From: Pararhodobacter zhoushanensis
GTDB lineage: Bacteria; Pseudomonadota; Alphaproteobacteria; Rhodobacterales; Rhodobacteraceae
Direction: 5' to 3'
Assembly: GCF_003990445.1 (NCBI RefSeq)
Contig: NZ_REEZ01000001.1
Coordinates: 748,358-812,357 of the forward strand
DNA: 64,000 nt
The position numbers were made by a program, and so were the translations under genes. A model generated the notes under the pieces. That model worked only from the letters and a program-made list of their open reading frames with translations. It was not told the origin of the DNA and made no database searches. The number at the start of each line of letters is the position of its first letter. Positions within the stretch are counted from its first letter, which is position 1. Positions 43,645-61,665 of this stretch are shown piece by piece.

Positions 43645-44805
43645 CTATGCCGTGTGTCGCCGCTTGCGCATCTGCTTGACGATGTTCAGCTGATGGATCT
43701 GGCTGGTTCCTTCGTACAGTCGGAACAGCCGGACATCGCGGTAGTACCGCTCGATGGTCGACGCATTGGCGACATAGCCCGCGCCGCCGAACACCTGCAC
43801 GCAGCGGTCCGCGATGCGCCCACACGCTTCCGAGGCGAAGTACTTGCAGATCGACGCCTCGAGCGCGATATCCTTGCCGTCATCGCGCGCCCGCGCGGTC
43901 TGCAGGATCAGCGCGCGCGCCGCTTCGATCTCGGTCTGACAATCGGCGAGCAGCGCGGCGACAAGCTGGAAGTCGATGATCGCCTGCCCCGACTGACGGC
44001 GCGTTTCGGCGTGGTCCATCGCCAGATCCAGCATGCGGATCGCGGGGCCAGTGCACAGCGCCGCCAGATGGACGCGCTGCTTGTTGAGCACCTTCATCGC
44101 GGTGCGAAACCCCTGCCCTTCCAGCCCGCCGATGACAGCGCTGGCGGGTACACGGACGTCTTCAAGCAGCACCTCGCCCACCGGCGAGCCGCGCTGCCCC
44201 ATCATCGTGTAGGGCGCGGAGGTGGACAGGCCCGGCTCTCCCCGCTCAACCAGAAACGCCGAAACGCCGCGCGCGCCCTTGCTGTCGGGATCGGTGCGGG
44301 CGAAGACGGTGAACAGGCCCGCAATCGGCGCGTTGGTGATATAGCATTTGCGGCCGTTGAGGATGTAGTCATCGCCATCCCTGCGGGCCGAGGTGGTGAG
44401 CGAACTGGCATCGGACCCGGCGTCCGGTTCCGTCAGCGCGAACGAGCCGGTGATTTCGCCGCGCGCCAGTCGCGGCAGGTAGTCGGCCTTTTGCGCCTCG
44501 GTCCCATCGGCAACCAGCGCTTCCGAACCGATGCCGGTGTTGGTGCCGACCCGCGCGCGAAAGGCCACCGCGCATTGCGACAACTCCATCGCGCCCAGCA
44601 CCAACTCCTCGGTGGTGAACCCTGCCCCGCCATAGGCCTGCGGGATCGACCAGCCGAAAAAGCCGCGCGCGGCCATGTCGGCGACGATCTCGGCGGGAAC
44701 CTCGTCGGTTTCGGCCACGCGGTCCTCGGCCGGATGTGCCACCGCGCGCACCCAGTCGTGGACATCGCCCAGAAGAGCGTCGAGCCGGTTCTGATCGCGG
44801 ATCAT
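43645..44805 (-). CDS. Acyl-CoA dehydrogenase
   Basis: This 386-residue FAD enzyme has FALTEPDAGSDASSL, KCYITNAP and a complete C-terminal catalytic motif RLYEGTSQIHQLNI, whose Glu is the base that removes the alpha proton. It is the last gene of the twelve-gene operon and has a full active site, unlike the pair encoded at 51736-53925. Confidence 0.93.
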   Translation of the reverse strand: MIRDQNRLDALLGDVHDWVRAVAHPAEDRVAETDEVPAEIVADMAARGFFGWSIPQAYGGAGFTTEELVLGAMELSQCAVAFRARVGTNTGIGSEALVADGTEAQKADYLPRLARGEITGSFALTEPDAGSDASSLTTSARRDGDDYILNGRKCYITNAPIAGLFTVFARTDPDSKGARGVSAFLVERGEPGLSTSAPYTMMGQRGSPVGEVLLEDVRVPASAVIGGLEGQGFRTAMKVLNKQRVHLAALCTGPAIRMLDLAMDHAETRRQSGQAIIDFQLVAALLADCQTEIEAARALILQTARARDDGKDIALEASICKYFASEACGRIADRCVQVFGGAGYVANASTIERYYRDVRLFRLYEGTSQIHQLNIVKQMRKRRHTA

Positions 44806-44808
44806 CGC

Positions 44809-45609
44809 TTAATCCCGTCCTGTCTTGCTGAAATCCGGGCGGCGTTTTTCAAGGAACGCAGCCAGCCCCTCGCCCGCCTCACGGCCATAGCGCGCGGCGT
44901 TGATGCCCCGGCCCTCGATATCGACCTGCTGGGCCAAGGCGTTCTGCGGCGCGCTGGCGAGTTGGGATTTGATCGTTTCAATCGCCGCACTGGCCCCGGC
45001 GGCGAGCGCCTCGGCCAATTCCAAGGCCGCAGAGAGCGCGCCGCCCGCGTCGGCCACCACATTGACCACACCGGCGGCGTGCAACCGCTCGGCACTCACC
45101 GGGCGACCCAGCATGCACAGCTCGGATGCCAGCTGGCGCGGCAAGGCCTCGCGCAGGAAATGGGTGGTGCCGCCGTCCGGCGTCAGCCCGATCTTCACGT
45201 AAGCGACGGTGAATTTCGCCCCGGCCGAGGCGGTAACCATGTCACACGACAGCGCCACCGCGACACCGAGGCCCGCCGCCCCACCCTCGACCGCCGCGAT
45301 CAGCGGCGTCGGGCAGGCACGGATCGCCAAGATCATCGCCGCCAGCGCGTCGGTGTTGCGACTGACCTCGGACAGCGGCAACTGGCGGCTTTCCTGCAGC
45401 GCGGCGACATTGCCGCCCGAGGAAAAGAACCCCTGCGCCCCGGTCAGGACGATGGCGCGCACCGCCCTGTCCTTTCCTGCGTCGATCACGGCGGCGGTCA
45501 GCGCCTCATACTGCGGGCGGCTGATCGAGTTGCGCGAACTGGGGCCATCCATGGTCAGGATACGGACCGCGCCGCGCGTCTCGATACGGATTTCGGTGGT
45601 GCTTGTCAT
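44809..45609 (-). CDS. Crotonase-family enoyl-CoA hydratase/isomerase (PaaG-like)
   Basis: This 266-residue crotonase has the oxyanion hole in FSSGGNVAAL and GGAAGLGVAVALSCD. The two glutamates of classic hydratases are not in place. An Asp in GLTPDGG is retained, as in PaaG-like isomerases. It may therefore isomerise rather than hydrate. The start at 45609 follows GAGGGCAAC. Confidence 0.87.
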   Translation of the reverse strand: MTSTTEIRIETRGAVRILTMDGPSSRNSISRPQYEALTAAVIDAGKDRAVRAIVLTGAQGFFSSGGNVAALQESRQLPLSEVSRNTDALAAMILAIRACPTPLIAAVEGGAAGLGVAVALSCDMVTASAGAKFTVAYVKIGLTPDGGTTHFLREALPRQLASELCMLGRPVSAERLHAAGVVNVVADAGGALSAALELAEALAAGASAAIETIKSQLASAPQNALAQQVDIEGRGINAARYGREAGEGLAAFLEKRRPDFSKTGRD

Positions 45610-45619
45610 GTTGCCCTCG

Positions 45620-46828
45620 TCACACGATGCCATTGGCGCGCAGACCGGCGACCTGCTCGGCGGTCAGGCCAAGATCTCGGAAGATCGCCTCATTATCCGC
45701 GCCCAGCGACTTGGCCGCCCAGCGGATCTTGCCCGGATTGCGCGTCAGGCGCGGTACCACGTTCTGCATCCGGACGGTGCCGAAATCCTCATCCGCCACC
45801 GGGGTGATCGCCTCGCGGTCCTGCATCTGGGCGTCGGCAAAGATCTGCTCGACCGAATAGATCGGCCCGATGGCCCCGTTCTCGCGGGTAAAATCGGCCA
45901 GCACCTGCTCCAGCGTGTGGCTCTCCATATAGGCGCGAAACACGCCATCCAGCTCCTCGCGATAGCGCATGCGGTCGCGGTTGGTCTTGAAGCGGGGATC
46001 GTCGATCAGATCGCTGCGCCCAATGGCGCGCATGTTGGCCGCCGACATGGAGTCGGTCGAGCCGGTCACGGTGACATACCGCCCGTCACCCGTGCGAAAC
46101 ACATTCGCCGGGGCGGTGTACTGGTTGTTGTTGCCGTCGCGCTCGCGCACCTGACCCAGTTGATCGTATTCAATTGCCAGATTTTCCAGCAGCCGGAAGG
46201 TCGCCTCGGTCAGCGCAAGGTCGATCTCCTCACCCTGCGTGCCATTGCGCGCGATGCCCAGCAGCGCGGCGCAGATCGAGAACGCGCCGAACAGACCGCC
46301 GATGGCGTCGGCAATCGGATAGCCCGGATGCACCGGATCGCCGTCCTTGGTGCCGGTGATATGGGTCAGCCCGCCCATCGCCTCGAAGATCCGGGCAAAG
46401 CCGCCCTGTTTCGACGTGGGCCCGGTCTGGCCGAAGGCCGAGACGCGCAGGATCACCAGCCTGGGGTTGATCTGCCACAGCGTCTCGCGGTCCAGCCCCC
46501 ATTTCGCCAAGGTGCCGGGGCGGAAGTTTTCCACCAGAACATCGCTCTGCGCGATGATCTGCTTGATGACTGCCAGCCCCTCGGGCTGGCGCAGATCCAG
46601 CGTGCCATAGCGTTTGCCGCGGTTGGTGACTTTCCACCACAGCGGCTTGTTGTCGCGAAACGGCGGGAAATTGCGCAGCCCGTCGCCGCGACCGGGGATC
46701 TCCAGCTTGGTGACATCCGCGCCGAAATCGGCCAGCAGCGAGGCGGCGAAGGGGGCCGCGATGATCGTCGCAATGTCGAGAACCTTGAGCCCGGCAAGCG
46801 GGCCGAACGGGGCGTCGGGAGCGGTCAT
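45620..46828 (-). CDS. CoA-transferase family III (CaiB/BaiF)
   Basis: This 402-residue protein has the family motifs GLKVLDIATIIAAPFAAS, GADVTKLEIPGRGD, NRGKRYGTLDLR, LVENFRPGTLAKWG and the Asp region PIADAIGGLFGAF. Class III enzymes move CoA between acids via an aspartyl-CoA mixed intermediate. Here it may activate the transported acid using CoA from a later intermediate. It overlaps the lactonase gene by four bases. Confidence 0.92.
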   Translation of the reverse strand: MTAPDAPFGPLAGLKVLDIATIIAAPFAASLLADFGADVTKLEIPGRGDGLRNFPPFRDNKPLWWKVTNRGKRYGTLDLRQPEGLAVIKQIIAQSDVLVENFRPGTLAKWGLDRETLWQINPRLVILRVSAFGQTGPTSKQGGFARIFEAMGGLTHITGTKDGDPVHPGYPIADAIGGLFGAFSICAALLGIARNGTQGEEIDLALTEATFRLLENLAIEYDQLGQVRERDGNNNQYTAPANVFRTGDGRYVTVTGSTDSMSAANMRAIGRSDLIDDPRFKTNRDRMRYREELDGVFRAYMESHTLEQVLADFTRENGAIGPIYSVEQIFADAQMQDREAITPVADEDFGTVRMQNVVPRLTRNPGKIRWAAKSLGADNEAIFRDLGLTAEQVAGLRANGIV

Positions 46829-47742
46829 AGGGAAATCCTTGCTGGAAAGCGCGTCTCCGGGATGCCGGTCGCGCCAGTGCCGTCGATGGCGAACAGGTGC
46901 CCGCCGTCGGGATGCTTTGACACCGCACGCCCGGTGCCGGAATCGCGGATCGAGGTCACGAACAGCGTGCCGCTGTCCGCGCCGCCGAAGGCCAGGCTTG
47001 AGGGCAGATCGACAGGGGCTTTGAAGCGGTGCAACAACCGTCCGTCCGGCGCAAAGCAGCCGATCTCGGCGCTGTGGATCATCGCGGCCCACAGGTTGCC
47101 GTCGCGGTCCACGGTCTGCCCGTCGACACCCGAACCCAACGGTGCCGTATCGGCCAGCACGCGTGGTTCCGACGCCTCGCCGCTGGCAGGGTCATAGTCA
47201 CAGGCATAGGTTTTGCGCGCGGGCGTGTCGGTGAAATAGAGCGTCGCGCCATCGGGGCTGAAACAGACGCCGTTGCCGATGCGGATGCCGCTGGCAAGGA
47301 TACGCTGCCGCCCGTCCGCGCTGAGCTGATGCACGGCCCCCAGCGGCGCGCCCGAGCGCCCCATCCCGACGCAAAGGAACCGCCCTTGCCGGTCGGTTGC
47401 CCCATCGTTCAGCCGCATCGCGGGATCGGCCCCGGCAAGGGTCAGCAGGATCTGCGCCGCCCCGGCAGTCGGATCGACCAGCAAGAATGCATGATCGCGC
47501 GCCACCAGAAGCTGCCCGGCTTCGGCCAGCGCCAGCGACCCGATATGCCCGCCGATCCGCACAGCCTCGGCTTCGGGCCGGGTCGGATGGTGGCAGCGGA
47601 TCTCGCCCGCCACCCCGTCGATCCACCACAGGCACCCGCCCTCGGCGTCCCACACCGGGCTCTCGCCCAGCGCGGCGGGGCGCTCAGACAGGCGGGTGGC
47701 GGTCAGGCTATCCGCAAGCCGCTTTTGCGCCTGCTCAGGCAT
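46825..47742 (-). CDS. SMP-30/gluconolactonase-family lactonase (second copy)
   Basis: This 305-residue beta-propeller has LGESPVWDAEGG, MRLNDGATDRQGRF, IGNGVCFSPDG and GVDGQTVDRDGN at the metal-site positions. It is only distantly like the sugar lactonase at 15704. In this operon it may open a lactone formed from a cyclic compound; that is inference. It overlaps tctA by eight bases. Confidence 0.88.
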   Translation of the reverse strand: MPEQAQKRLADSLTATRLSERPAALGESPVWDAEGGCLWWIDGVAGEIRCHHPTRPEAEAVRIGGHIGSLALAEAGQLLVARDHAFLLVDPTAGAAQILLTLAGADPAMRLNDGATDRQGRFLCVGMGRSGAPLGAVHQLSADGRQRILASGIRIGNGVCFSPDGATLYFTDTPARKTYACDYDPASGEASEPRVLADTAPLGSGVDGQTVDRDGNLWAAMIHSAEIGCFAPDGRLLHRFKAPVDLPSSLAFGGADSGTLFVTSIRDSGTGRAVSKHPDGGHLFAIDGTGATGIPETRFPARISL

Positions 47743-49252
47743 TCCTGACCTCACGGCGGGCGCGCATCTTGCCCCGGATATTCGCCGCGACCGCAACGAG
47801 GATGATTGCGATCAGGATCGTCATGATCGTCCCGGCAATCGGGCGTTCAAAGAACGTGCCCAGATCACCATTGGCGACGATCAGCGAGCGGCGGAAGAAC
47901 TGCTCGATCATCGGTCCAAGCACAAAGCCCAGCAGCAACGGCGCCACCTCGAATTTCAGCGCCTTCATGCCCACGCCGAGGAAGCCGAAGGCGACCAGAA
48001 TGGCGATGTCCATGACCTGATAATGCACGCTGTAGATGCCGATACAGGTGAAGGCGACGATCACCGGGAACAACAGATTGTAAGGGATCTTCAGCAACTT
48101 GACCCAAAGACCCACCATCGGCAGGTTCAGCACCAGCAGCATGAAGTTGCCGATGATGAAACTGACGATCAGCCCCCAGAACAGATCAGGATTGGACTGG
48201 ATCACGTTCGGCCCCGGAATGATGCCGTGGATCATCATCACGCCCAGCATGATCGCCATCACCGGATCGCCCGGAATGCCCAGGCTCAGCGTCGGGATGA
48301 ACGCCGCCTGAACCGAGGCATTGTTGGCCGCCTCGGGCGCGGCGACGCCTTCGATTGCGCCATGACCGAACTCTTCGGGATGTTTGCTGACTTTGCGCTC
48401 GACCGCGTAGGACACGAAAGTCGCCACCAGCCCGCCGGTGCCCGGCAACGCGCCAAAGAACGAGCCGATGGCCGATCCACGCACCATCGGCAGGGCCGAA
48501 CGGCGCCAGTCCTCGCGCGTGGGCATCATGTCGCGCATGCGGATCTTGCCCTCTTGCACCTTGGGCAGCTCAGAGCGGCCCGCGTTGGCGATGATCTCGG
48601 GCAGGCCGAACAGGCCGATGGCCACGGCGACCAGCGGCAGGCCGTCGTAGAACTCGGTCATGCCAAAGGTGAAGCGCCCGACGCCGCTGTTCAGGTCCAG
48701 CCCGATCAGCCCCAGCGCCAGGCCAAGCGTCACCGACACCAGCGATCGGATCGAGCGCCCGGTGCCGATCACCGCCGCCGCAACCAGCCCCAGCGACATC
48801 AGCGCGACGTATTCCTGCGGCCCGAACTGCAGGGCCACGCGCGCCAGCGGCACCGAAAAGCCGACCAGCAGCACAACGCCGAACATGGTGCCGACAAAGG
48901 AGGCGATGGCCTTCATGAACAACGCAGGTCCGGCACGGCCGGCTTGCGCCATGGGATAGCCTTCGATCCCGGTCACCGCACTGGTGGCCGTGCCCGGCAG
49001 GTTCATCAGGATTGCCGCCGTCGAGCCGCCGAAATCAGCGCCATAATAGATCCCGGCCAGCATGATCAGCCCGAAGGTCGGATCAATGTGGAAGGTGATC
49101 GGCATCAACATGGCCAGCGTGGCCATGATGCCGATGCCGGGCAGCACGCCGACCAGCGTGCCAAGGAACACGCCGATGAAGCAATACATCAGCCCTTCCC
49201 ACGACGCGGCGACGCTCAGCCCCAGCGCAATATCGGAAATAAGCGATGACAT
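47735..49252 (-). CDS. tctA: Tripartite tricarboxylate transporter, large membrane subunit
   Basis: This 505-residue TctA protein has GVLPGIGIMATLAMLMP, FGGSTAAILMNLPGTATSAVT, LIGLDLNSGVGRFTFG and many hydrophobic segments. With TctB and the periplasmic TctC encoded at 57017 it imports a carboxylate, energised by the ion gradient. Confidence 0.94.
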   Translation of the reverse strand: MSSLISDIALGLSVAASWEGLMYCFIGVFLGTLVGVLPGIGIMATLAMLMPITFHIDPTFGLIMLAGIYYGADFGGSTAAILMNLPGTATSAVTGIEGYPMAQAGRAGPALFMKAIASFVGTMFGVVLLVGFSVPLARVALQFGPQEYVALMSLGLVAAAVIGTGRSIRSLVSVTLGLALGLIGLDLNSGVGRFTFGMTEFYDGLPLVAVAIGLFGLPEIIANAGRSELPKVQEGKIRMRDMMPTREDWRRSALPMVRGSAIGSFFGALPGTGGLVATFVSYAVERKVSKHPEEFGHGAIEGVAAPEAANNASVQAAFIPTLSLGIPGDPVMAIMLGVMMIHGIIPGPNVIQSNPDLFWGLIVSFIIGNFMLLVLNLPMVGLWVKLLKIPYNLLFPVIVAFTCIGIYSVHYQVMDIAILVAFGFLGVGMKALKFEVAPLLLGFVLGPMIEQFFRRSLIVANGDLGTFFERPIAGTIMTILIAIILVAVAANIRGKMRARREVRNA

Positions 49253-49253
49253 C

Positions 49254-49700
49254 TCAGTAAGCCCTCATCTGCAAGCCAAGCCCGACGCGGAAAATCAGCA
49301 CGCAGACAACCGCCGTGCAGACCGCAAGGATCAGCGCCAGCGGCCATTTGGTGTTCGGGTTGGCTAGCGCGGCCAGAAACACCGCCGATGTCACCGACAC
49401 CAGCAAACCCAGCGACTCGATGGTCAGCGCGAAGGCCCCGAACGCGGCGGTCAGAAACAGCACACCGCGCACCTGCCCCCGCTCGAGCGAGAACAGCCTT
49501 TCGCTGCGTTGTGCCGTCAGCAGCATGATCACGGCCAGCACCAGCATGGTGCCGCCGATAATGGCGGGAAAATACCCCGGCCCCATGCTGCGCAAGGTGC
49601 CAAGTCGATAACTCATCGACTCGATGACGATGAACAGCCCGATGCCGCCGGTTACGAACGCGGCGATCAGATCCTCCGCCCGGTCCTTCAGATAGTGCAT
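49254..49700 (-). CDS. tctB: Tripartite tricarboxylate transporter, small membrane subunit
   Basis: This 148-residue TctB-family protein has four hydrophobic segments, for example LIAAFVTGGIGLFIVIES, LGTLRSMGPGYFPAIIGG and WPLALILAVCTAVVCVLIF. It lies one base before tctA in the transcript. Confidence 0.92.
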   Translation of the reverse strand: MHYLKDRAEDLIAAFVTGGIGLFIVIESMSYRLGTLRSMGPGYFPAIIGGTMLVLAVIMLLTAQRSERLFSLERGQVRGVLFLTAAFGAFALTIESLGLLVSVTSAVFLAALANPNTKWPLALILAVCTAVVCVLIFRVGLGLQMRAY

Positions 49701-49731
49701 GAACCCCTCCCTAGAGCACGACGCAGTCGTA

Positions 49732-50985
49732 TCAGTGTTGACCGCTGCCTGCGGTCCTGCTGCCAGCCCGGATGGACTGGCCGGTTATAATCCCGGCGCC
49801 AGCTCCCGACAGGAAACGGCACAGGGACGCAAGGTCTGTGGTGTCATCGCCGTCCCAGCGGACGCAGTTGACGCGCAGCCCGGCGGGGGCAAATTCCAGC
49901 GCCAGCGTTCGGGCCAGCATGCCCAGCGCGGCGCTGGTTGCCTGTTCGGCTGGCGTTGTGCCCACCGGGGTCACGAACAGCAGCGAGAACGCAGCAGTGC
50001 GCCCGCTATGCGCGGCGCAGGCCTGCGCCATCTGCCGCGCGGCGGACAGTTGGTCCGATACCGGGGCCAACCCGGCCAGCGCGCGCGCGTCAATGACCGA
50101 GCCAAGCGCGGTCTGCGCGCTCAGACCCTCGGGTCCGTCCAGTGCCGCCTGCCCGTCCAGCAGCGCCAATGGCCCGGCCAAAAGATCGGCCCCGGCCAGC
50201 CCCTGCCCCGCCGCCGGTGCCGTGCCCGCGACCGGCGTGCCAGCCGAGCTGCCGCCATCCACCACCAGCACCCGCCCGGTCAGCGCGCGGCCTGCGGCAC
50301 TGGCGCAAAACGCCACCGCATGGGCGATATCCTCGGGCTCGGCGATCCGCCCCAGCGGTATGGCCCGCGCCACGGCGGCCAGATCGACGCGTCCCTCGGC
50401 CTCAAGCTGTGAGACCAGCGGCGTGCGCGTATACCCCGGCGCGACCGCGCTCACCGAGATCCCCAAGGGCGCGCACTCCTGCGCCATCGCCTTGGTCAGT
50501 GCGGCGATGCCTGCCTTGGTCGCGCTATACGGCCCGCGCAGGGCAAGCGGCCGGTAGGACGCGCCCGAGGCAAGGTTCACGAGGCTGCCGCCTTTGGGCA
50601 AAAGTCCGATCGCCGCGGCGCTCAGCCGCTCGACCGCCGTCAGGTTCAGCGCAATCAGCCGCTCGAAGGCGTCTTGCGGCAGGTCCACCAGACTGCGCCC
50701 GCTGGTGTCGGTCATCCCGGCGTTGTTGACCACGCAATCCAGACGCCCCAATGCCTGCGCCGCGCGTGCGGGCAAGCCGGCAGCAACCACAGGATCGGTC
50801 AGATCCGCGCCAAGGCCCACATGCCCGTCACCCAACAACCGGGCTTGCGCCTGCGCCGCCGCAGCGTCCAGATCGGCCAGCGCGACGCGATAGCCGTCCT
50901 GCGCCAGCCGTCGACAAATCGCCCAGCCGATGCCGCCGGTTGCGCCGGTGACAAGGACGGTGCGGTGCTGCATGGGGGATGTCAT
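49732..50985 (-). CDS. SDR with C-terminal degenerate second SDR-like half
   Basis: This protein has 417 residues where a classical SDR has about 250. Residues 1-255 form a complete SDR: TGATGGIGWAI, NNAGMTD, LASGAS and the catalytic YSATK, closing with VVDGG. Residues about 265-417 look like a second, incomplete SDR: SAALGMLARTLALEFAPAGLRVNCVRW and TGQSIRAGS are recognisable, but the cofactor loop and catalytic Tyr-Lys pair are not. It may be a tandem-fusion protein with an architectural second half. The start at 50985 follows TGAGG. Confidence 0.85.
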   Translation of the reverse strand: MTSPMQHRTVLVTGATGGIGWAICRRLAQDGYRVALADLDAAAAQAQARLLGDGHVGLGADLTDPVVAAGLPARAAQALGRLDCVVNNAGMTDTSGRSLVDLPQDAFERLIALNLTAVERLSAAAIGLLPKGGSLVNLASGASYRPLALRGPYSATKAGIAALTKAMAQECAPLGISVSAVAPGYTRTPLVSQLEAEGRVDLAAVARAIPLGRIAEPEDIAHAVAFCASAAGRALTGRVLVVDGGSSAGTPVAGTAPAAGQGLAGADLLAGPLALLDGQAALDGPEGLSAQTALGSVIDARALAGLAPVSDQLSAARQMAQACAAHSGRTAAFSLLFVTPVGTTPAEQATSAALGMLARTLALEFAPAGLRVNCVRWDGDDTTDLASLCRFLSGAGAGIITGQSIRAGSRTAGSGQH

Positions 50986-50993
50986 GCCCGACC

Positions 50994-52737: not shown

Positions 52738-52740
52738 GGA

Positions 52741-53925: not shown

Positions 53926-56057
53926 TGGGCGGCCTCTTGCTGGGCGGTCTGGTGCGGGATGATCAGCGCGTCGAGCGCAAGCACGCCCTGCCCGTCATCC
54001 CGGACCAGCACGGGATTGATGTCGATTTCGGCCACGTCCTGCGCGTGGCGCACGGCAAAGCGCGACAGCGCGGCGATGGCCGTGCAGAGCGCGGCCTTGT
54101 CAGCCGGGGCGCGGCCGCGCGCACCATCGAGCAGCGGATAGGCGCGCAGTTCGCGCAGCATCTCGGCCGCCTCGGCTTCGGTCACCGGAGCCAGCCGCAG
54201 GGCCGTGTCCTTGAAGATTTCGGCAAACACCCCGCCCAGACCGACCATGACCGCCGGGCCAAAGATCGGATCGGTCACGGTGCCAAGGATCATCTCGGTC
54301 CCGCCGTTGATCATTGGCGCGACCAGCACGCCGTCGAACGCGGCGTCGGGCGCGTGGCGCGCCACGGCGTCGCGGATGCGCGTGTAGGCGGAAGCAGCGC
54401 CTGAGGGGTCAATGCCCAGCTCGACCCCGCCGATATCGCTTTTGTGCTGGATGTCTGGCGACAGAACCTTCATCGCGACCAGCCCGCCGATCCTGCTGGC
54501 AGCGTCCGTCGCGTCGCTGGCCGAGGTGACGGTGATCTCATTCGCGAAGGTCAGGCCCGCGTCGGTCAGCACCGCCTTAGCCGATGCCTCGTTGCGCGTG
54601 GCACCGGCGGGCAGCGGGGCCGCAGGAATGGACGGCAGCGCGGTCGCCCCCGCCGCGCGGATCGCCTCGACCTTGGCAAGGGCGGCGATCCCGCCCATCG
54701 CGGCGTCGATGGTCGGAAAACAGGCGATGCCGAAGCTGCGCAGCTCGGCGATGGCGTCGCTGGGGCCGGACAGGCAGGCGACCAGCGTCTTGCCCGGATG
54801 GCGGGCCGTGACCCGTGACAGCGCTTGGGTAAAGACCGTGCGCAGACGGGGAATTTCCATGCCCAGCGCCAGCATCAGACAGACCGTGCTGTTTGCCTCA
54901 TCCGCCAGCGCGGCATCGACCAGCTTTTCCAGAATGTCGGGACTGGCGGACATCTGCGCCGTCGCATCGACCGGGTTCGCCGTTGCCGCCAAAGGCAAAG
55001 CCGCCCGGATGCGCGCCTGCGTGGCGGCGGTCAACGGGTTCACGCCCACGCCGTGTTGCGCCGCCGCATCGGCCATCATGATGCCGAACCCGCCCGAGGC
55101 AGCGATCATCGCCGCCGACGGGGCCGTGCCGACGCTGCGCGTCCCGATAGCTTCGACCGCAGCGCCGACCTGCACCAGTTCTTCAAGCGAGCGCACCCGC
55201 ACCGCGCCGTGACGCAGGAACACCGCGTCAAACACCCGGTCGCTGCCCGCCAGCCCGCCGGTATGCGACTGCGCCGCTTTCTGGCCCGCCTCGGAAGTGC
55301 CGATCTTGAGCACGATCACCGGCTTGCCCGCATCCCGCGCGCGGTCAAGCGCCCGCGTCAGGCGCGGGGCATCGCGGCAGGTTTCGATACAGCACAGGAT
55401 GACGCTGGTTTCCTCGTCGGTCGCCAGCCATTCAAGCGCATCGGCGGCTTGCAGATCGGCCTCGTTCCCCGTCGCGATGAACCGCGCAAGGCCCGCACCG
55501 CTGTCCTTGAGCTGGCGCAGGGCCGCGCTGCCGATATTGCCGCTTTGCGAGACGATGGAGACGCCGCCGGTCTTGGGCATCTCGTTTTCCAGCGCGACCG
55601 AGAAGGTGCCGATGGCCCGCTCGCGCACGCTGAGCGCGCCAAGGCAGTTCGGCCCCAGAATGCGCATACCCGTCTCGCGGGCGAGCGCCGTCAGACGGTC
55701 CTGCCGCGCCGCACCCTCGGGGCCGCTTTCCGCAAACCCGGCGCTCAGCACGATAGCCGCCCCTGCCCCTTTGGCGGCTGCTGCCTCAAGTGCTGCGACA
55801 GCGCCCGCGCCGGGGACAGCAACCAGCACAAGGTCGGGCACGCCGGGCAGGTCATCGACCGACGCAAAGGCAGGCAGGCCCTGCACGACATCCGCTTTGG
55901 GATTGATCGGCCAGATCGCCCCGGCATAGCCGTATTTGAGCAGCATGTGCATCGGACGGCCGCCGGTCTTCGTCGGCTCGGAGGATGCGCCGACAATGGC
56001 GATGGAGCGCGGCGAGAACAGCGCGTTCAGGCCCTTTGCGGGCGACGTCATGTCCAT
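53922..56057 (-). CDS. NDP-forming acyl-CoA synthetase (acetate-CoA ligase family, fused alpha-beta)
   Basis: This protein of 711 residues starts at the ATG at 56057; 56051 is also possible. The N-terminal CoA-binding domain has AIVGASSEPTKTGGRP and PINPKADVVQG. The central CoA-ligase-like domain contains the phosphorylated His region QSHTGGLAGSD. The C-terminal ATP-grasp domain begins at about residue 480 with AVLTDAGLTFANE and has HKSDIGGVELGI and VAEIDINPVLV. The family makes acyl-CoA with ADP release in the cytoplasm. The name 'acetate-CoA ligase' is only a family label, because many members activate other acids. It probably activates the acid imported by TctABC. Confidence 0.9.
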   Translation of the reverse strand: MDMTSPAKGLNALFSPRSIAIVGASSEPTKTGGRPMHMLLKYGYAGAIWPINPKADVVQGLPAFASVDDLPGVPDLVLVAVPGAGAVAALEAAAAKGAGAAIVLSAGFAESGPEGAARQDRLTALARETGMRILGPNCLGALSVRERAIGTFSVALENEMPKTGGVSIVSQSGNIGSAALRQLKDSGAGLARFIATGNEADLQAADALEWLATDEETSVILCCIETCRDAPRLTRALDRARDAGKPVIVLKIGTSEAGQKAAQSHTGGLAGSDRVFDAVFLRHGAVRVRSLEELVQVGAAVEAIGTRSVGTAPSAAMIAASGGFGIMMADAAAQHGVGVNPLTAATQARIRAALPLAATANPVDATAQMSASPDILEKLVDAALADEANSTVCLMLALGMEIPRLRTVFTQALSRVTARHPGKTLVACLSGPSDAIAELRSFGIACFPTIDAAMGGIAALAKVEAIRAAGATALPSIPAAPLPAGATRNEASAKAVLTDAGLTFANEITVTSASDATDAASRIGGLVAMKVLSPDIQHKSDIGGVELGIDPSGAASAYTRIRDAVARHAPDAAFDGVLVAPMINGGTEMILGTVTDPIFGPAVMVGLGGVFAEIFKDTALRLAPVTEAEAAEMLRELRAYPLLDGARGRAPADKAALCTAIAALSRFAVRHAQDVAEIDINPVLVRDDGQGVLALDALIIPHQTAQQEAAQ

Positions 56058-56058
56058 C

Positions 56059-56832
56059 TCAGCGCCCCTTGAACACCGGATCGCGCTTTTCAAGAAAGGC
56101 CATGCGGGCTTCCTTGGCATCCTCGGTCTTGGACAGCGCCATCGTGTAGTTCTGCTCAAGCCGATAGGCGTCGCGCTGGGGCATGTTCTCGACCATATTC
56201 GCGGCCTGCTTGGCGTAGGTGATCGCCAGCGGCGCCTTCTGGGCGATTTCCTGCGCCAGTTCCATCGCGGTGGGCAAAAGCGCCTCGGGCGTGGTGACCT
56301 TTTCAATCACCGAGCGGGCGAGCAACTCGTCAGCGGTCAGGCGCACACCGGAAAAGAACATCCGGCGGGTGGTCGAGCGCCCGAACAGCGAATGCAGCAT
56401 CGACGCGCCCCCGGCGAGGCCGACGTTGATCTCGGGCATGCCGAACACAGCGTTGTCCGAAGCATAGAAGATGTCGCACGAGGCCATCAGCCCCAGACCC
56501 GCACCCAGCGCCGGGCCGTTGACCGCAGCGATCACCGGCTTGGCGCATTCGCGGATGGCATTGCCGGTTTCGCGGGTGATTCGGTTGTGTTCGAGAAAGT
56601 CGCCGGGCTTGTCGGCGTCCGGGCGATCCTTGAGATCGGCCCCGGCGCAGAACATCTTGCCGCTGCCGGTCAGGACCGCGCAACGCACGTCATCGCTTTG
56701 GGAAATCGCGTCGAAGACCTCGACCAGTTCATAGCGGGTGGCCCGGTCCAATGCGTTCACCGGCGGCCGGTCAAGCGTCACAAGCGCCACCATGCCCTGC
56801 AGCTCTACGCGCACATTCTTCTTGTCAAACAC
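56059..56832 (-). CDS. Enoyl-CoA hydratase/isomerase-family protein
   Basis: This 257-residue crotonase is the first gene of the operon. Its oxyanion-hole region is FCAGADLKDR and GPALGAGLGLMASCD. One catalytic Glu is seen in GMPEINVGLAGG (the Glu164 equivalent in rat hydratase). The second Glu is replaced by Gly, as in several dehydratase-type crotonases. A TetR-type operator lies 25 bases before its ATG. Confidence 0.9.
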   Translation of the reverse strand: MFDKKNVRVELQGMVALVTLDRPPVNALDRATRYELVEVFDAISQSDDVRCAVLTGSGKMFCAGADLKDRPDADKPGDFLEHNRITRETGNAIRECAKPVIAAVNGPALGAGLGLMASCDIFYASDNAVFGMPEINVGLAGGASMLHSLFGRSTTRRMFFSGVRLTADELLARSVIEKVTTPEALLPTAMELAQEIAQKAPLAITYAKQAANMVENMPQRDAYRLEQNYTMALSKTEDAKEARMAFLEKRDPVFKGR

Positions 56833-56856
56833 GGTCGATTCCCCCTCCGAAGCGCC

Positions 56857-56872
56857 CTGACCGATCGGTCAG
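56857..56872. promoter_or_regulatory. TetR-type operator before the twelve-gene operon
   Basis: CTGACCGATCGGTCAG is a perfect 16-bp palindrome 25 bases before the crotonase ATG at 56832. The same TGACCG/CGGTCA core occurs before tctC (56939) and before tetR (58739). Confidence 0.8.
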
Positions 56873-56934
56873 TCAGCCTCACGCTAGCAAGAGTTGCCAC
56901 AGCCCACAATGACTTTTTGCCGGAAAATCCCCCC

Positions 56935-56964
56935 TTGACTGACCGGTCGGTCAGTGCCTAGGCT
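56935..56964 (+). promoter_or_regulatory. tctC promoter with TetR-type operator in the spacer
   Basis: TTGACT at 56935-56940 and TAGGCT at 56959-56964 (18-base spacer) form a plausible promoter. The near-palindrome CTGACCGGTCGGTCAG at 56939-56954 fills the spacer, so bound repressor would block RNA polymerase. Confidence 0.7.
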
Positions 56965-57016
56965 GAAGACACGCATGGCTTTGCCGGCCGCGCGACGTTC
57001 AGGGAGGAACAGCACC

Positions 57017-57994
57017 ATGATGACGATGAACCGCAGGGGTGTGCTTGCCGCAGCAGGGCTTGCACTGACCACCGCACTGACACCGGTCGCAACATTCGCG
57101 CAATCGGGTGCGCCGATCACCCTTATCGTGCCCTATGGCGGCGGCGGGCTGATCGACGGGCTGGTGCGCGAGATCGCCGATTCGATGTCGCAAACCCTTG
57201 GCCAGCCGGTGCTTGTCGAGAACAAGCCGGGTGCCAATGGCATCATCGGCGCCACCCTTGCGGCCCATGCCGCGCCCGATGGCCTGACCTATTTCGTCGG
57301 CGCAACCGGCCCGCTGTCGCTGAACGTGCTGCTGCGCGACGGCCTTGATTACAGCATGGACAGCTTTGCGCCGGTCGGCACGATGATGAGCGGACCGCTG
57401 ACGATCTCTGTCCCCGCGTCGATGGGCGGCGAGGATATCGACGGTCTGGTGGCCTATGCCCACGAGCGCGGCACGCCGCTGCGCTACGCAACGCTGGGAC
57501 CGGGCAGCGTGACCCATCTGTTCGGCATGGTCTTGCAGGACCGGTTGGGCGTCGACATGGTTGACGTCGCCTATGACAACAACCCCTCGGCGATTACCGA
57601 CCTGATCGGCGGGCAGAATGACCTGAACTTCTCGACGCCGATCTCGCTGGTCGCGCATCAGGAGTCGGGCGATCTGGTGATGCTGGCGATTTCCTCGCCC
57701 GAGCGCCACCCGCGCTTCCCCGACCTGCCGACCACGACCGAGCTTGGCTACCCTGAGCTGGTGTCTTCGTTCTGGTTCGGCCTTCTGGCCCCGACCGGCA
57801 CGCCCGACAGCGACATCACCCGTGTCAGCGAAGCGCTGCAAACCGCGTTGAACAGCGCGGATCTGCAAGAACGCATGAACAACGTCGGCATGACGCCCGA
57901 AGTTGGCGGCGCCGATGCGATGCAGGCTCAACTGGACTGGGACATGGACTTCTGGGGGGGCGTGATTACCCGGAACAACATCCGTCTCGAGTAA
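57017..57994 (+). CDS. tctC: Tripartite tricarboxylate transporter periplasmic binding protein
   Basis: This 325-residue Bug/TctC protein has a signal peptide with an RR pair (MNRRGVLAAAGLALTTALTP) ending near FAQS. It then shows LIVPYGGGGLIDGLVRE, VENKPGANGIIGA and PTTTELGYPELV. GGGAGGAA precedes the ATG. It supplies the substrate to TctAB, whose genes are about 7.8 kb away in the divergent operon. The substrate is presumably a carboxylate and not necessarily a tricarboxylate. Confidence 0.93.
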   Translation: MMTMNRRGVLAAAGLALTTALTPVATFAQSGAPITLIVPYGGGGLIDGLVREIADSMSQTLGQPVLVENKPGANGIIGATLAAHAAPDGLTYFVGATGPLSLNVLLRDGLDYSMDSFAPVGTMMSGPLTISVPASMGGEDIDGLVAYAHERGTPLRYATLGPGSVTHLFGMVLQDRLGVDMVDVAYDNNPSAITDLIGGQNDLNFSTPISLVAHQESGDLVMLAISSPERHPRFPDLPTTTELGYPELVSSFWFGLLAPTGTPDSDITRVSEALQTALNSADLQERMNNVGMTPEVGGADAMQAQLDWDMDFWGGVITRNNIRLE

Positions 57995-58015
57995 GCCTCA
58001 GGTTTACGCCGACGC

Positions 58016-58044
58016 AAAGGCCCCGTCGCAAGACGGGGCCTTTT
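58016..58044. terminator. Bidirectional terminator between tctC and tetR
   Basis: AAAGGCCCCGTC-GCAA-GACGGGGCCTTTT is a 12-bp perfect stem with a four-base loop and a T-tract (A-tract on the other strand). It separates convergent genes. Confidence 0.88.
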
Positions 58045-58068
58045 GCCATGCGCTTGAGCTGCGAACAC

Positions 58069-58692
58069 TCAGCTTTTCAGTCCGTTCAGGATAATATCGG
58101 CGTACTGGCTGACGATGTCTTCAGCGCTCAGGCTTTTCGCCGGGTCGAACCAGCGCTGCATCCAGTTGATGCCTGACAGGATCAAACGCCCCGCCGCCGC
58201 CGGATCGACCTCGCGGAACTCCCCCGAGTCGACGCCTTCGCGGATCAGATCGCGCAACCGTTGCTCGAACAGCCGCCGACGGGCGACGCGGCGCGCCATG
58301 CGGTGGCGGTCAGGATCGGTCCAGAAGGCCGTACTGGCGGCGATCCACGACGAGCGATGATCGGCAAAGAACGTGGCGGCAGCGGTCATGAAGGCAAGGA
58401 TCTTCTCCGACGCCGTGCCGGTTTCAGGGATGCGGGCTTCGACAAACTCATACAGATTGCGCGTCGAGTTGAACGAAATCCGCGCGTAGATTTCGTCCTT
58501 GCTGACAAAATGATGGTACAGCAGCGCTTTTGACACGCCCGCCGCCATCGCGATGTCGCGCATCGACGTGCCTTCATAGCCTTTTTCGGCAAAGATCCGG
58601 GTGCCGACTTCGAGCAACTCCTGCACCCGCGCGCTGCCCTCATCCGTCCCCGAATCGGCACTGTCGTCTGCCCGGCTGTCTTGCTCATTCAT
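58069..58692 (-). CDS. TetR-family transcriptional regulator
   Basis: This 207-residue regulator has the TetR helix-turn-helix GTSMRDIAMAAGVSKALLYHHFVSKDEIY at about residues 40-68 (cited by its ends GTSMRD and KDEIY). It follows a polar, acidic N-terminal tail. The C-terminal ligand domain is unassigned. The palindrome 47 bases before its start matches those before tctC and the operon, so it probably represses all three units until an acyl-CoA or related inducer appears. Confidence 0.9.
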   Translation of the reverse strand: MNEQDSRADDSADSGTDEGSARVQELLEVGTRIFAEKGYEGTSMRDIAMAAGVSKALLYHHFVSKDEIYARISFNSTRNLYEFVEARIPETGTASEKILAFMTAAATFFADHRSSWIAASTAFWTDPDRHRMARRVARRRLFEQRLRDLIREGVDSGEFREVDPAAAGRLILSGINWMQRWFDPAKSLSAEDIVSQYADIILNGLKS

Positions 58693-58738
58693 CGTTGTTG
58701 CCCCGAAGCCGTCTGCGTTACCGCAAAGTGACGGCCCC

Positions 58739-58752
58739 TGACCGATCGGTCA
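58739..58752. promoter_or_regulatory. TetR-type operator before tetR
   Basis: TGACCGATCGGTCA is a perfect 14-bp palindrome upstream of the tetR start at 58692. It has the same core as the sites at 56857 and 56939 and indicates autoregulation. It overlaps the stop region of the LysR gene. Confidence 0.78.
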
Positions 58753-59682
58753 AGGCCTGCGCCCCGGCAAACTGCCCTCTCGCAGGGCGCGCCCCCAATG
58801 TGCGACGACAAAATCGATATAAAGCCGCAGTTTGGCGGGAATAAACGGCGCTTCGGGATAGGTGACAAAGATCCCTTCCTCAAACGTCGCGTTGGTCACC
58901 CGCATGTCCGGCAGAACGACCACCAGCGCACCCGACGCGATCTGATCGGCAACCGTGTAGTCATCGAGCAACGCGATGCCCTGCCCTGCGAGCGCCATGT
59001 TCAGCAGCACCAATCCGTTGTTGGAACTGAACACGGTGGGGATCGCAAGTTCATGCTCGGTTTCGCCGTCGCGGAACCGCCAATAGACCCGTTCGTGACT
59101 GGTCCAGTAGGTCAGACAGTCATGCGCTGACAAGTCTTGCGGGCAGGTAATGGCGGGCGTGCGCGCCAGATACGCGGGCGAGGCCACCAGAATACGCTGG
59201 CTCAGAAACAAACGCCGCCGCACCAATCCTTGCTCGGCAGGCGGTGCGATGCGGAAATCAAGGTCGAACCCGTCCTCACGCAGGCGTACCGGCTGCTCGG
59301 ACAGATGCAGATCGACCACCAGATCGGGATAGAGTTGCGAGAACGACGGTTGCAGCCGTGACAGCACCGACACCCCGAACATCGTGCGCGAATGCACCCG
59401 CAGTATGCCGCGCGGGGATTCATTCTGATCGCTGGCCGCATTCTCTGCCGCCTTGACCGACGCCAGAATGTCGCTGGCATCCCGGTGATAGCGCTGCCCG
59501 GCCTCGGTCAGGGTCAGCGCGCGGGTCGAACGGTGGATCAGCGTGACGCCCAGACTGGCCTCAAGCTCGTTCACATGGCGCGAGACGCTGGCCGGGGACA
59601 GGCCATAAAGCCGCCCGGCAGCAGAGAAGCTGCCGCTTTCGGCGGTCGCCACCAAGAGTTCCATCGCCCGCAGCTTGTCCAT
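58750..59682 (-). CDS. LysR-family transcriptional regulator
   Basis: This 310-residue LysR protein has the winged helix MELLVATAESGSFSAAGRLYGLSPASVSRHVNEL at the start (cited by its ends) and a substrate-binding domain. ATG at 59682 follows AAAAGG. A GTG at 59688 is less likely. It is divergent from the flavin monooxygenase pair and probably controls it. Confidence 0.88.
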   Translation of the reverse strand: MDKLRAMELLVATAESGSFSAAGRLYGLSPASVSRHVNELEASLGVTLIHRSTRALTLTEAGQRYHRDASDILASVKAAENAASDQNESPRGILRVHSRTMFGVSVLSRLQPSFSQLYPDLVVDLHLSEQPVRLREDGFDLDFRIAPPAEQGLVRRRLFLSQRILVASPAYLARTPAITCPQDLSAHDCLTYWTSHERVYWRFRDGETEHELAIPTVFSSNNGLVLLNMALAGQGIALLDDYTVADQIASGALVVVLPDMRVTNATFEEGIFVTYPEAPFIPAKLRLYIDFVVAHWGRALREGSLPGRRP

Positions 59683-59789
59683 TACCACCTTTTCATTTCT
59701 TGCAAAGCTGAGCTGCGAAACTGCCCGGTTATCACCAAAATTGCAATAACCTACACTGGAGGCAGATGTTCTGACGGGAGGAAAATACC

Positions 59790-60863
59790 ATGGACTTCGG
59801 CGCCTTCATTCTTGCGCAGCAGCGCGGCTACCATCAGTCTTCGCATCAGGTGATCGCGAATGCTGTCGAGCAAACGGTCATGGCTGAAAAGGCCGGTTTT
59901 TCAAACGCCTGGTACGCTGAACACCATTTCAACAACTACTCGCTGTCGCCCTCGCCGCTGATGATGGTGGCGCATTGCGCCGGCAAGACCAGCACGATCC
60001 GCCTTGGTTCGGCGGTCTGTATCCTGCCGCTCTACCACGCCCCGCGCTTTCTGGCCGAGGTCGGCTTTGTCGACACGCTGTCGAACGGCCGTCTGGAGTT
60101 GGGCATCGGCGTTGGCTATCAGGATTTCGAGTTCCAGCGCTTTGATACCAATCTGGCCGATGCCGGGAAAATCTTTGAGGAATACCTCGAAGTCATCCCC
60201 AAGGCGCTGACGCAAAAGATCTTTGAGCACCACAGCGAGTATCTCAACATCCCGCCCAGCTCGATCGCGACCCGGCCCATGCAAGACCCGATGCCGCCGC
60301 TGTGGATCACCACCGGCAACCCCAAGATCCGCGCCCATGCCTTCCGCGAAGGCTACAACATGTTTGTGACCGCCCTGCTCAACGGCATGGACTCGGTGCG
60401 TCATGTCCGCGGGCAGCTGGATCAGGCGATCGAGGAGTCTGGCACCGACGGCAGCAAGTCCCGCATCGGCTTTTTGCGCTGCGGCTATGCCAGCGACAAT
60501 GATGCCGAGATCGACTCGTATCTGGAGAACGCCATCTTCCAGCGCCGCCTGTCGTTCAGCCTGAAGAACCGCACCCAGACCACCGACGACGGCTACATGA
60601 TGAAAGAGGTCCCCTCTGAGGGTGATCCGACCATCGAAGACCTGCGCCGCAACCTGCCGGTCGGCAGCGTGAACCGGGTAATCGAGCGGCTGATCGAGGA
60701 AATCGAAGTGCTGCGCCCCGACCATATCGCGTTGCAGACCCAGCTGGGTGACTTTGATCAGAAGACCATGCTCAAGCAGATGGAGCTCTGGGGCGACACG
60801 ATCATCCCGGCGGTTCAGAAAGCGGTCGGCAGCACGACCAAAGTCTCCGCGGCGGCCGAGTAA
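59790..60863 (+). CDS. LLM-class flavin-dependent monooxygenase (bacterial luciferase family)
   Basis: This 357-residue LLM protein has MDFGAFILAQQRG, AEKAGFSNAWYAEHHFNNYS, GSAVCILPLYHAPRFLAEVGFVD and GRLELGIGVGYQDFEFQRF. The family oxidises substrates with FMNH2 from a partner reductase, including Baeyer-Villiger, sulfonate and aldehyde reactions. The reductase gene follows four bases downstream. GGGAGGAAAATACC precedes the ATG. Confidence 0.9.
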   Translation: MDFGAFILAQQRGYHQSSHQVIANAVEQTVMAEKAGFSNAWYAEHHFNNYSLSPSPLMMVAHCAGKTSTIRLGSAVCILPLYHAPRFLAEVGFVDTLSNGRLELGIGVGYQDFEFQRFDTNLADAGKIFEEYLEVIPKALTQKIFEHHSEYLNIPPSSIATRPMQDPMPPLWITTGNPKIRAHAFREGYNMFVTALLNGMDSVRHVRGQLDQAIEESGTDGSKSRIGFLRCGYASDNDAEIDSYLENAIFQRRLSFSLKNRTQTTDDGYMMKEVPSEGDPTIEDLRRNLPVGSVNRVIERLIEEIEVLRPDHIALQTQLGDFDQKTMLKQMELWGDTIIPAVQKAVGSTTKVSAAAE

Positions 60864-60867
60864 GACC

Positions 60868-61665
60868 ATGCGGATCGTTCTCACCGCCGGAGCGGCACCT
60901 CGCCTCGAAAGTGCCGAGGACTTCAAGCGCTTCTCGATTGCGCTTGATGGCACGCTGACCGCAAACCGCAGCGCAGCCGTCGCCCCGGTGGCTGAGCTCG
61001 ATGACGCAGATCACGCCTGGGTTCGGCCGGATGCGATCAGGGCCATCTCGCCCTTCGCCGGCCAGCCCGACTGGGAGAACGGCTTTGCCGCCATGCTCGG
61101 CTTTGCCGTCAAGCACGGCTGGGTTGATGCCCAGGGCCGTATCCGCGCGCATATCGACGAGATCGAGGCACTACCCCCGGTCGATGCCGACGCGTTCCGA
61201 CAAGCCATGCGGCGCTTTGCGTCGGGTGTGTGCATCGTGGCAGCAGGCAGCGGTGAGGCGCGCTGCGGGATGACGGTTTCGGCCTTTTCATCCGTCTCGG
61301 CCGAGCCGCCCATCGTGCTGGTCTGCCTGAACCGGCGCGCCGCCGCCCATGCCTGCGTCACCAGCGCGCCGAGTTTCAGCATCAACATCCTGCGCGCCGA
61401 TCAGACCGAGGAAGCGATGCTCTTCGCCGGGCAGCGGGTCCGCCATGGGGCTGCGCGCTTCGATGAAGACTGGGAGGCCGGGGACCACAGCGCCCCGGTC
61501 CTAAAGACCGCGCTGCAAAGCCTGATCTGCACCAGCCTCGCCCAGCACGAGGCCGGCAGCCACACGGTGCTGATCGGTCGCGTTGTGTCGGTGACGGCAG
61601 GATCGCCCGACGCGGCGCTGGTCAATTATGACGGCGCGCTGGGCCGGTTCGACCGCGCTTCCTGA
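60868..61665 (+). CDS. Flavin reductase with extra N-terminal region
   Basis: This 265-residue protein has a flavin-reductase-like, FMN-binding domain from about residue 105 on (FRQAMRRFASGVCIVAA, TVSAFSSVSAEPPIVLVCLN, PSFSINIL). The first 100 residues are not part of the usual domain. They are acidic and contain WVRPDAIRAISPF and WENGFAAMLGFA, and I do not recognise them. It should supply reduced flavin to the adjacent LLM enzyme. The ATG at 60868 is four bases after that gene. Confidence 0.85.
   Translation: MRIVLTAGAAPRLESAEDFKRFSIALDGTLTANRSAAVAPVAELDDADHAWVRPDAIRAISPFAGQPDWENGFAAMLGFAVKHGWVDAQGRIRAHIDEIEALPPVDADAFRQAMRRFASGVCIVAAGSGEARCGMTVSAFSSVSAEPPIVLVCLNRRAAAHACVTSAPSFSINILRADQTEEAMLFAGQRVRHGAARFDEDWEAGDHSAPVLKTALQSLICTSLAQHEAGSHTVLIGRVVSVTAGSPDAALVNYDGALGRFDRAS

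Follow-up and report, generated by a model that had tools for sequence, protein, structure and literature searches.

A 64,000-nucleotide stretch of the Pararhodobacter zhoushanensis genome (positions 748,358 to 812,357 of contig NZ_REEZ01000001.1; hereafter, the window) harbors a compact set of about 18 genes in which synthetase, acyl-CoA dehydrogenase (ACAD), monooxygenase-family, and lactonase-family genes occur together. The set is tentatively read, with a confidence just short of even, as a mobile cluster for the two-stage catabolism of a carboxylic acid that bears a ring. Two stages are proposed because the cluster encodes two CoA-activating enzymes, an NDP-forming acyl-CoA synthetase (ACS) and a class III CoA-transferase (CoAT), and because its genes are split into two groups in two relatives, Sulfitobacter W074 and the alphaproteobacterial genome G137. 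Known enzyme families thus appear in an undescribed combination; literature searches, whose coverage mostly excluded subscription papers, found no pathway with this gene set, in line with a first-pass annotation of the window that knew of none.

In the first stage, assigned to the TetR regulon, the importer TctABC would take up the acid and ACS would form its CoA ester. A heteromer of ACAD2 and ACAD3 would desaturate the ester beside the ring, the crotonase ECH2 would hydrate it and probably cleave it in a retro-aldol manner to a cyclic ketone and acetyl-CoA, and short-chain dehydrogenases (SDRs) would adjust hydroxyl and keto groups of the ring. In the second, LysR-linked stage, a luciferase-like flavin monooxygenase (LLM) with FMNH2 from the flavin reductase FR, or in its place an FMO-type enzyme, would insert oxygen in a Baeyer–Villiger fashion to give a lactone, which the lactonase SGL would open; an alcohol oxidase, represented by GMC in some relatives, would then form a diacid. 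CoAT would then add CoA a second time, such that ACAD1, a hydratase/3-hydroxyacyl-CoA dehydrogenase, and a 3-oxoadipyl-CoA thiolase (PcaF-type thiolysis) could complete an adipate-type β-oxidation. The substrate, the lyase and Baeyer–Villiger activities, and the order of the steps are predicted. The first-pass route, which led from a monooxygenase to a lactone, a lactonase, CoA activation, and β-oxidation, is probably incomplete, as there are two CoA-activating enzymes and the genes are split in W074 and G137. CoA activation is therefore placed first here; the substrate of the first-pass route and its Baeyer–Villiger step remain conjectural.

The operon consists of twelve head-to-tail open reading frames (ORFs) on the minus strand, running from 56832 down to 43645 in the order ECH2, ACS, ACAD3, ACAD2, SDR2, SDR1, TctB, TctA, SGL, CoAT, ECH1, and ACAD1. 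The gene junctions span −4 to +31 bases and are approximate where starts (ECH1, CoAT, SGL, SDR2, and ACS) were trimmed by hand. The ORFs and their Pfam content (three ACADs, two crotonases, two SDRs, a class III CoA-transferase, an SMP-30/gluconolactonase, TctA, TctB, and an NDP-forming acyl-CoA synthetase) bear out the operon first described. The opposite strand carries tctC, which completes the tripartite tricarboxylate transporter by Pfam; it is followed by tetR and a LysR gene (both minus), LLM and FR (both plus), and a convergent SnoaL_4 gene (minus). The adjacency claimed for the LLM/FR pair and the SnoaL-like gene is likewise found, the latter lying just beyond the interval first delimited, while the LysR gene had been overlooked.

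ACAD2 and ACAD3 are adjacent, diverged genes. In an alignment of eight sequences, ACAD2 keeps RVQFG and lacks YEGT and LSIER, and ACAD3 has LSIER and lacks RxQFG. Motifs of this kind are associated with the catalytic base and with FAD contact in ACADs; their split between the two proteins suggests a complementary pair. The best PDB matches are Tcur3481 for ACAD2 and 4x28_A and Tcur3483 for ACAD3, such that the closest solved relatives of the two genes are partners of one another in Tcur3481–Tcur3483 and ChsE4–ChsE5. The top four Foldseek chains for the predicted structure of ACAD2 (pLDDT 80.6) are partner subunits of steroid ACADs, with which it shares 24–26% identity. VIA gave no separation between such partner subunits and other ACADs. 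Indirect support for a heteromer may be seen in Variovorax PBL-E5, where a single 2.3-kb gene (L096:24525-26855) encodes both an ACAD2-like part and, after it, an ACAD3-like one.

ECH2 harbors a glycine where five aligned PDB hydratases have a glutamate and keeps the PE motif; the first glutamate is also absent from ECH2 of Sulfitobacter W027, W074, and Variovorax SPNA7. Enoyl-CoA hydratases employ two glutamates in catalysis, and by the alignment ECH2 is not a two-glutamate enoyl-CoA hydratase. At the diacid end, the best NCBIfam model of CoAT is succinate-glutarate CoA-transferase (240 bits, cutoff 750), with YfdE and the human succinate-hydroxymethylglutarate transferase among its best PDB matches. 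PcaF of W027 and W074 pass TIGR02430 with 676.4 and 667.4 bits, respectively (cutoff 597). The best NCBIfam model of SDR1 is the 524-position PRK06484, below cutoff. As a separate observation, SDR1 of W074 has 658 aa and ends in a carboxymuconolactone-decarboxylase-like region (CMD, 2e-07; L026:34437-36413).

The cluster is rare, conserved, and, judging from gene order in other genera and on plasmids, apparently mobile. Its rarest marker, ACAD2, occurs in five of 295 family genomes searched at 1e-20, the window's own included. Eleven other loci were compared: seven alphaproteobacterial ones chosen by ACAD2 alone (G153, G192, G092, G137, and the plasmids of Sulfitobacter W027, Sulfitobacter W074, and Pseudosulfitobacter pseudonitzschiae H46) and four from Variovorax, chosen by a match to ACS (4/4) and to SnoaL or LLM (3/4, among the matches listed) and therefore not an unbiased sample. 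The seven plasmid loci among these belong to a group of 53 plasmid records with an ACS match, the remainder being mostly about 40% identical among the 30 matches listed.

The co-occurrence check that the first-pass annotation had proposed found the cluster again in these loci, but the exact twelve-gene order is kept in only two of the seven alphaproteobacterial loci (G153 and W027), the other five retaining a core of eight or nine genes. G153 contains the whole block of twelve genes, tctC, tetR, LysR, LLM, FR, and SnoaL. G192 and G092 keep the nine genes from ECH2 to SGL along with tctC, an extra SDR, tetR, LysR, and LLM, within which the G092 contig ends. In G137, eight genes from ECH2 to TctA and tetR are followed by ACAD1, MFE, CoAT, FR, LLM, LysR, and SGL. 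The W027 plasmid carries the complete set plus SnoaL, a 3-hydroxyacyl-CoA dehydrogenase, GMC, and PcaF, with insertion sequence elements on both sides. Cluster genes of the three Sulfitobacter and Pseudosulfitobacter plasmids are approximately 30–84% identical to those of the window. The four Variovorax plasmids carry rearranged versions: SPNA7, PDNC026, and 2u118 encode LLM (47–48% identical), ECH2 (69–70%), and ACS (51%) with LysR, FR, SnoaL, SDRs, and a lactonase, while PBL-E5 is more distant (ECH2 53%, ACS 41%). In SPNA7, a diverged ACAD adjoins the ACAD3-like gene. In W074 and G137, LLM/FR travels with CoAT, MFE, and ACAD1 (in W074 also with PcaF), and the synthetase, the paired ACADs, ECH2, and the SDRs form the TetR module. 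G192 additionally has further TctC- and TctA-like genes beside the cluster (L020:15550-19901), with an ORF read as a GntR-type regulator.

The colinearity found by blastn with G222 (same genus) and with G294 and G210 (same family), three of six genomes compared, ends at tRNA-Pro, which is taken as the island edge for this reason. A direct tRNA repeat as the mark of an insertion was considered and rejected, as none was found within 40–64 kb. Broader scans returned little: a scan of genome contigs with ACAD2 gave one poor actinobacterial match, a class-wide scan with the ACAD2 alignment (at most five candidates scored per genome) found only the own genome among 385, and a phylum-wide ECH2 scan found two of 398 genomes (the own one and G359 at 51%) as well as an own-genome paralogue. 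No other cluster gene was found in the 16 kb examined around the G359 match. The own genome also holds a second, related cluster on contig C53 (L093:4473-11020), comprising SGL, ACAD3-like, ACAD2-like, ECH2-like (53%), AMP-binding ligase, and crotonase genes; an IclR regulator and an SDR lie nearby, and no LLM match was found in the 16 kb examined.

LLM lies inside the cluster in ten of the eleven other loci, supporting its membership in one unit with the TctABC importer, which the first-pass annotation had offered as inference. SnoaL is present in eight; it was not found in W074 or G137, nor seen in G092 up to the end of the contig. LLM and a separate flavin reductase reproduce the two-component layout of type II (LLM) Baeyer–Villiger monooxygenases; no NCBIfam model reaches its cutoff with LLM. 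FR is extended at its N-terminus by some 110 aa (window 60865-61200) without a Pfam match. H46 and G192 carry an FMO-type enzyme in addition to LLM; the model that scores best with it, below cutoff, is that of the Baeyer–Villiger enzyme PtlE. The exception among the eleven loci, PBL-E5, encodes in place of LLM an FMO-type monooxygenase that shares 66% identity with the FMO of H46; for this reason, the two enzymes look as if they were interchangeable for one job. The predicted structure of SnoaL (pLDDT 44) was too low in confidence to use.

The regulatory sequences divide the cluster in two. The pattern TGACN6GTCA occurs three times in the window, 0.74 being expected and three of 100 shuffles reaching three; all three matches are TGACCGNNCGGTCA, two in the ECH2/tctC spacer (56858 and 56940) and one before tetR (58739). 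In the whole genome, TGACCGNYCGGTCA is found at five places, three of them inside this cluster, and a reversed control pattern at one per strand. Two palindromes with at most one mismatch to TGACCGNNCGGTCA precede ECH2 in all eight alphaproteobacterial loci (the window and 7/7 others), and one precedes tetR in six of the eight, five with at most one mismatch and G092 with two; none was found before tetR in W074 and G137. A further palindrome is located inside a gene of locus L025. In Variovorax SPNA7, the stretch upstream of ECH2 contains no TetR-type palindrome. The seven LysR/LLM spacers examined contain none, and LysR counterparts (42–74% identical) lie beside LLM in other loci. Because the palindromes stand at ECH2/tctC and tetR and are missing from the LysR/LLM spacers, TetR very probably controls the operon, tctC, and itself, and LLM is more likely to answer to LysR than to TetR. 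The first-pass description of a TetR-governed island thus stands for the operon, for tctC under the same operator type, and for tetR, but not for LLM with its own divergent LysR. The only other own-genome match to the island TetR at 1e-12 is 25% identical.

The same palindrome occurs about 20 bases before a PcaF-like gene elsewhere in the own genome (G000 C23:130939), and the fifth, at C9:73725, falls within long ORFs. An action of the island TetR in trans on the thiolase was rejected as pathway evidence, since the PcaF-like gene is the first of a phenylacetate operon, next to paaX, and since in G222, a genome of the same genus without an ACAD2 match, the palindrome lies about 1.3 kb upstream of paaA; the site is therefore not tied to the island. 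Independently of the cluster, the palindrome in the phenylacetate operon promoter (L063:9440-9453) hints at a TetR-type regulator acting there in addition to PaaX.

Read directly from the genomes are the gene families, synteny, operators, ACAD pair complementarity, ECH2 glutamate loss, and PcaF in two relatives, and several observations weigh against the two-stage pathway built on them. It is drawn from genes, with a predicted substrate and predicted products, and it assigns no fixed job to SnoaL or the SDRs. The single-glutamate crotonase ECH2 could instead be an isomerase or a plain hydratase. LLM scores 108 bits against the alkanal monooxygenase 8cbb and 31 bits against 3,6-diketocamphane monooxygenase; being nearer to alkanal monooxygenases, its sequence does not entail oxygen insertion into a ring. 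No GMC, PcaF, or 3-hydroxyacyl-CoA dehydrogenase gene lies beside the window cluster, and the G137 stretch examined contains no PcaF; elsewhere, the own genome encodes two thiolases resembling PcaF (71 and 78%), which might or might not serve the cluster, as well as six GMC proteins (38–45%). ACAD1, ECH1, and CoAT are absent from the stretches examined in G192 and G092, LLM is absent from 36 kb of the PBL-E5 locus, and SPNA7, PDNC026, and 2u118, three of the four Variovorax loci, lack an ACAD2 match at 1e-8.

One alternative, considered unlikely, is a polycyclic or hormone-like substrate (a steroid fragment, jasmonate, abscisate, or a terpenoid acid), in which the two-gene ACAD would act on a short side chain borne by a bulky ring, and LLM would open the ring system. 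The steroid enzymes related to the ACAD pair, the relatives of LLM and SnoaL on rhizobial plasmids, and the origin of two of the Variovorax from legume roots are consistent with it. However, the model of the IpdE2 steroid subfamily scores 66 bits (cutoff 450), no steroid ring-degradation gene is found among the annotated and matched genes (no search dedicated to them was made), and the papers listed on jasmonate breakdown (20 of 54) concern, by title, plants and in no case bacteria. The paired subunits are common to the window and to ChsE4–ChsE5 and Tcur3481–Tcur3483, but no steroid context is seen around the window genes.

Considered equally unlikely is a β-oxidation of the cyclohexanecarboxylate type, in which ACS, the paired ACAD, a hydratase, and an SDR would yield a 2-ketocycloalkane carboxyl-CoA that a BadI-like crotonase opens hydrolytically to a pimelyl-type CoA, LLM acting elsewhere, e.g., on a ring substituent. 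ACAD pair, SDR, and crotonase families are shared with the Pim/Bad system of Rhodopseudomonas; PimC is the best NCBIfam model of ACAD3 (189 bits, cutoff 624), and SDR1 scores below cutoff with the BadH and ChcB models. In contrast, all curated models of this system, including the PimC, PimD, and BadH equivalogs, score far below cutoff for the window genes, ECH1 and ECH2 lack the normal hydratase glutamate pair, and PcaF in W027 and W074 points to a C6 diacid end. The monooxygenase and lactonase, present in nearly all loci, would be left unexplained, and we know of no Baeyer–Villiger enzyme or lactonase in Pim/Bad systems. Two unrelated adjacent operons, i.e., a TetR-controlled fatty or aromatic acid operon and a separate LysR–LLM–FR unit, are very improbable: the regulators differ, the TetR site is absent before LLM, rhizobia have LLM without the operon, and the related PBL-E5 cluster has no LLM, but LLM accompanies the cluster in ten of the eleven other loci, some of them rearranged so that LLM stands among CoAT, MFE, and ACAD1, and PBL-E5 has an FMO in its stead. 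The addition of the 2u118 and PBL-E5 loci slightly raised confidence in the two-stage cluster and slightly lowered that in two operons.

The proposed two-stage route resembles that of cyclohexaneacetic acid, which in Arthrobacter CA1 (Ougham and Trudgill 1982) reportedly proceeds via the CoA ester, a cyclohexylidene acyl-CoA, a lyase, cyclohexanone, and caprolactone to adipate. The logic would be the same (acyl-CoA ester, α,β-dehydrogenation at the ring carbon, hydration and cleavage to a cyclic ketone, lactone, adipate), with the substrate of the window cluster being assigned by analogy. To our knowledge, no gene cluster has been described for the Arthrobacter CA1 route. In a Rhodococcus genome study, the software used assigned no enzyme to cyclohexaneacetic acid ('unknown') (PMC4591350). 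The cluster would therewith offer a concrete gene set for alicyclic side-chain acids, which form part of naphthenic and terpenoid acids.

In the camphor pathway encoded on the CAM plasmid of Pseudomonas putida, the two-component type II Baeyer–Villiger enzymes need separately made FMNH2, and a later monooxygenase acts on a CoA ester (PMC6352141). To that extent, the type II layout with separate FMNH2 and the use of a CoA ester are alike, and the FMO of H46, G192, and PBL-E5 parallels the type I enzyme OTEMO (PMC6352141). However, the camphor enzymes are not the nearest relatives of LLM, and the window cluster differs by its two CoA-activating enzymes, the ACAD pair, TctABC, and a lactonase of the SMP-30 type.

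Relatives of LLM and SnoaL are concentrated on rhizobial plasmids. Tblastn returned 111 plasmid records for LLM, 103 from Rhizobium, Sinorhizobium, or Mesorhizobium, and 158 for SnoaL, 148 from the same three genera; under the limits applied, at least 47 of the SnoaL records lack an LLM match. Among the matches listed (best 60 of 111 and best 60 of 158), 21 rhizobial records have both, with starts 1.0–3.4 kb apart. On pNGR234a and pRtrCIAT899b, LLM (56–59% identical to the window's) and SnoaL (56–58%) are closely linked and flank a double SDR. NGR234 (L027:4283-9056) has the order nifQ, transporter, P450, SnoaL, double SDR, LLM, nifH, and CIAT 899 (L036:9742-13228) the order SnoaL, SDR, LLM; one S. 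meliloti plasmid has LLM, SnoaL, P450 fragments, and an ACC deaminase nearby. Unlike the window cluster, the nif-linked set has no match to ACS, ACAD, crotonase, Tct, or lactonase genes in the 17–23 kb examined. The gene y4wF was dropped as the rhizobial LLM, as the NGR234 match lies in the nif region; the NGR234 gene is presumably y4vJ, under which name a literature search found nothing. In a tree of 12 LLM sequences, too few for a claim of origin, the rhizobial and Variovorax branches group.

The window cluster thereby provides a biochemical clue to the LLM/SnoaL/SDR set of many rhizobial plasmids, although a cyclic plant acid as the substrate of that set is a guess. It is doubtful, but conceivable, that the cluster is the first gene set for an acid–cyclic ketone–lactone–adipate route of alicyclic side-chain acids, which plasmids and islands have carried through marine Roseobacteraceae and Variovorax. 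On this reading, its LLM and SnoaL, with a double SDR, would be those kept beside nif in nitrogen-fixing rhizobia, and their role in the nodule would be to modify a cyclic acid of the plant, perhaps a hormone.

Table 1. Genes, predicted operators, and border of the cluster (window coordinates).
Feature	Position	Strand	Basis
ACAD1, complete acyl-CoA dehydrogenase, proposed for diacid-CoA	43645..44805	-	Pfam N, M, and C domains; YEGT motif
ECH1, crotonase, oxepin-CoA hydrolase (alternative) type	44809..45609	-	NF046063 313.7 bits, cutoff 300; TPDGG; both hydratase Glu absent
CoAT, class III CoA-transferase, nearest dicarboxylate CoA-transferases	45620..46822	-	Pfam; NCBIfam and PDB matches
SGL, SMP-30/gluconolactonase-type lactonase	46825..47736	-	PF08450 4e-63; PDB regucalcin and related
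TctA	47735..49252	-	PF01970 2e-154
TctB	49254..49700	-	PF07331 7e-19
SDR1, SDR with second, degenerate SDR half	49732..50985	-	Pfam match at residues 9-246 of 417 aa; C-terminal half by eye
SDR2, short-chain dehydrogenase	50994..51737	-	Pfam
ACAD2, putative second subunit of two-gene acyl-CoA dehydrogenase	51736..52737	-	C-terminal ACAD domain alone scores; PDB, Foldseek
ACAD3, putative catalytic subunit of two-gene acyl-CoA dehydrogenase	52741..53925	-	PDB best 4x28_A, Tcur3483; LSIER present
ACS, NDP-forming acyl-CoA synthetase	53922..56060	-	CoA_binding_2, Succ_CoA_lig, ATP-grasp_5
ECH2, crotonase with one of two hydratase glutamates	56059..56832	-	PRK06495 394 bits, cutoff 296; Gly at first Glu position, PE kept
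TetR-type operator 1 (predicted)	56858..56871	.	TGACCGATCGGTCA; conserved position
TetR-type operator 2 (predicted)	56940..56953	.	TGACCGGTCGGTCA; conserved position
TctC periplasmic binding protein	56954..57994 (real start probably near 57018)	+	PF03401 4e-45; PDB Bug proteins, terephthalate-binding TBP
TetR-family regulator	58069..58692	-	TetR_N, TetR_C_24; PDB best 3vpr
TetR-type operator 3 (predicted), upstream of tetR	58739..58752	.	TGACCGATCGGTCA
LysR-family regulator, divergent from LLM	58750..59688	-	HTH_1, LysR_substrate
LLM, luciferase-like flavin monooxygenase	59790..60863	+	PF00296 2e-56
FR, flavin reductase	60865..61665	+	PF01613 at residues 115-259 of 266
SnoaL_4/NTF2-like protein, convergent with FR	61670..62263	-	PF13577 1e-20; 47-76% identical counterparts
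tRNA-Pro(TGG), island edge	62501..62577	-	blastn colinearity with G222, G294, and G210 stops here

Directly downstream of the operon, a plus-strand ORF for a PAS/LuxR-type regulator (42993-43616) overlaps an oppositely oriented M20 peptidase ORF at the 5′ end of the latter.

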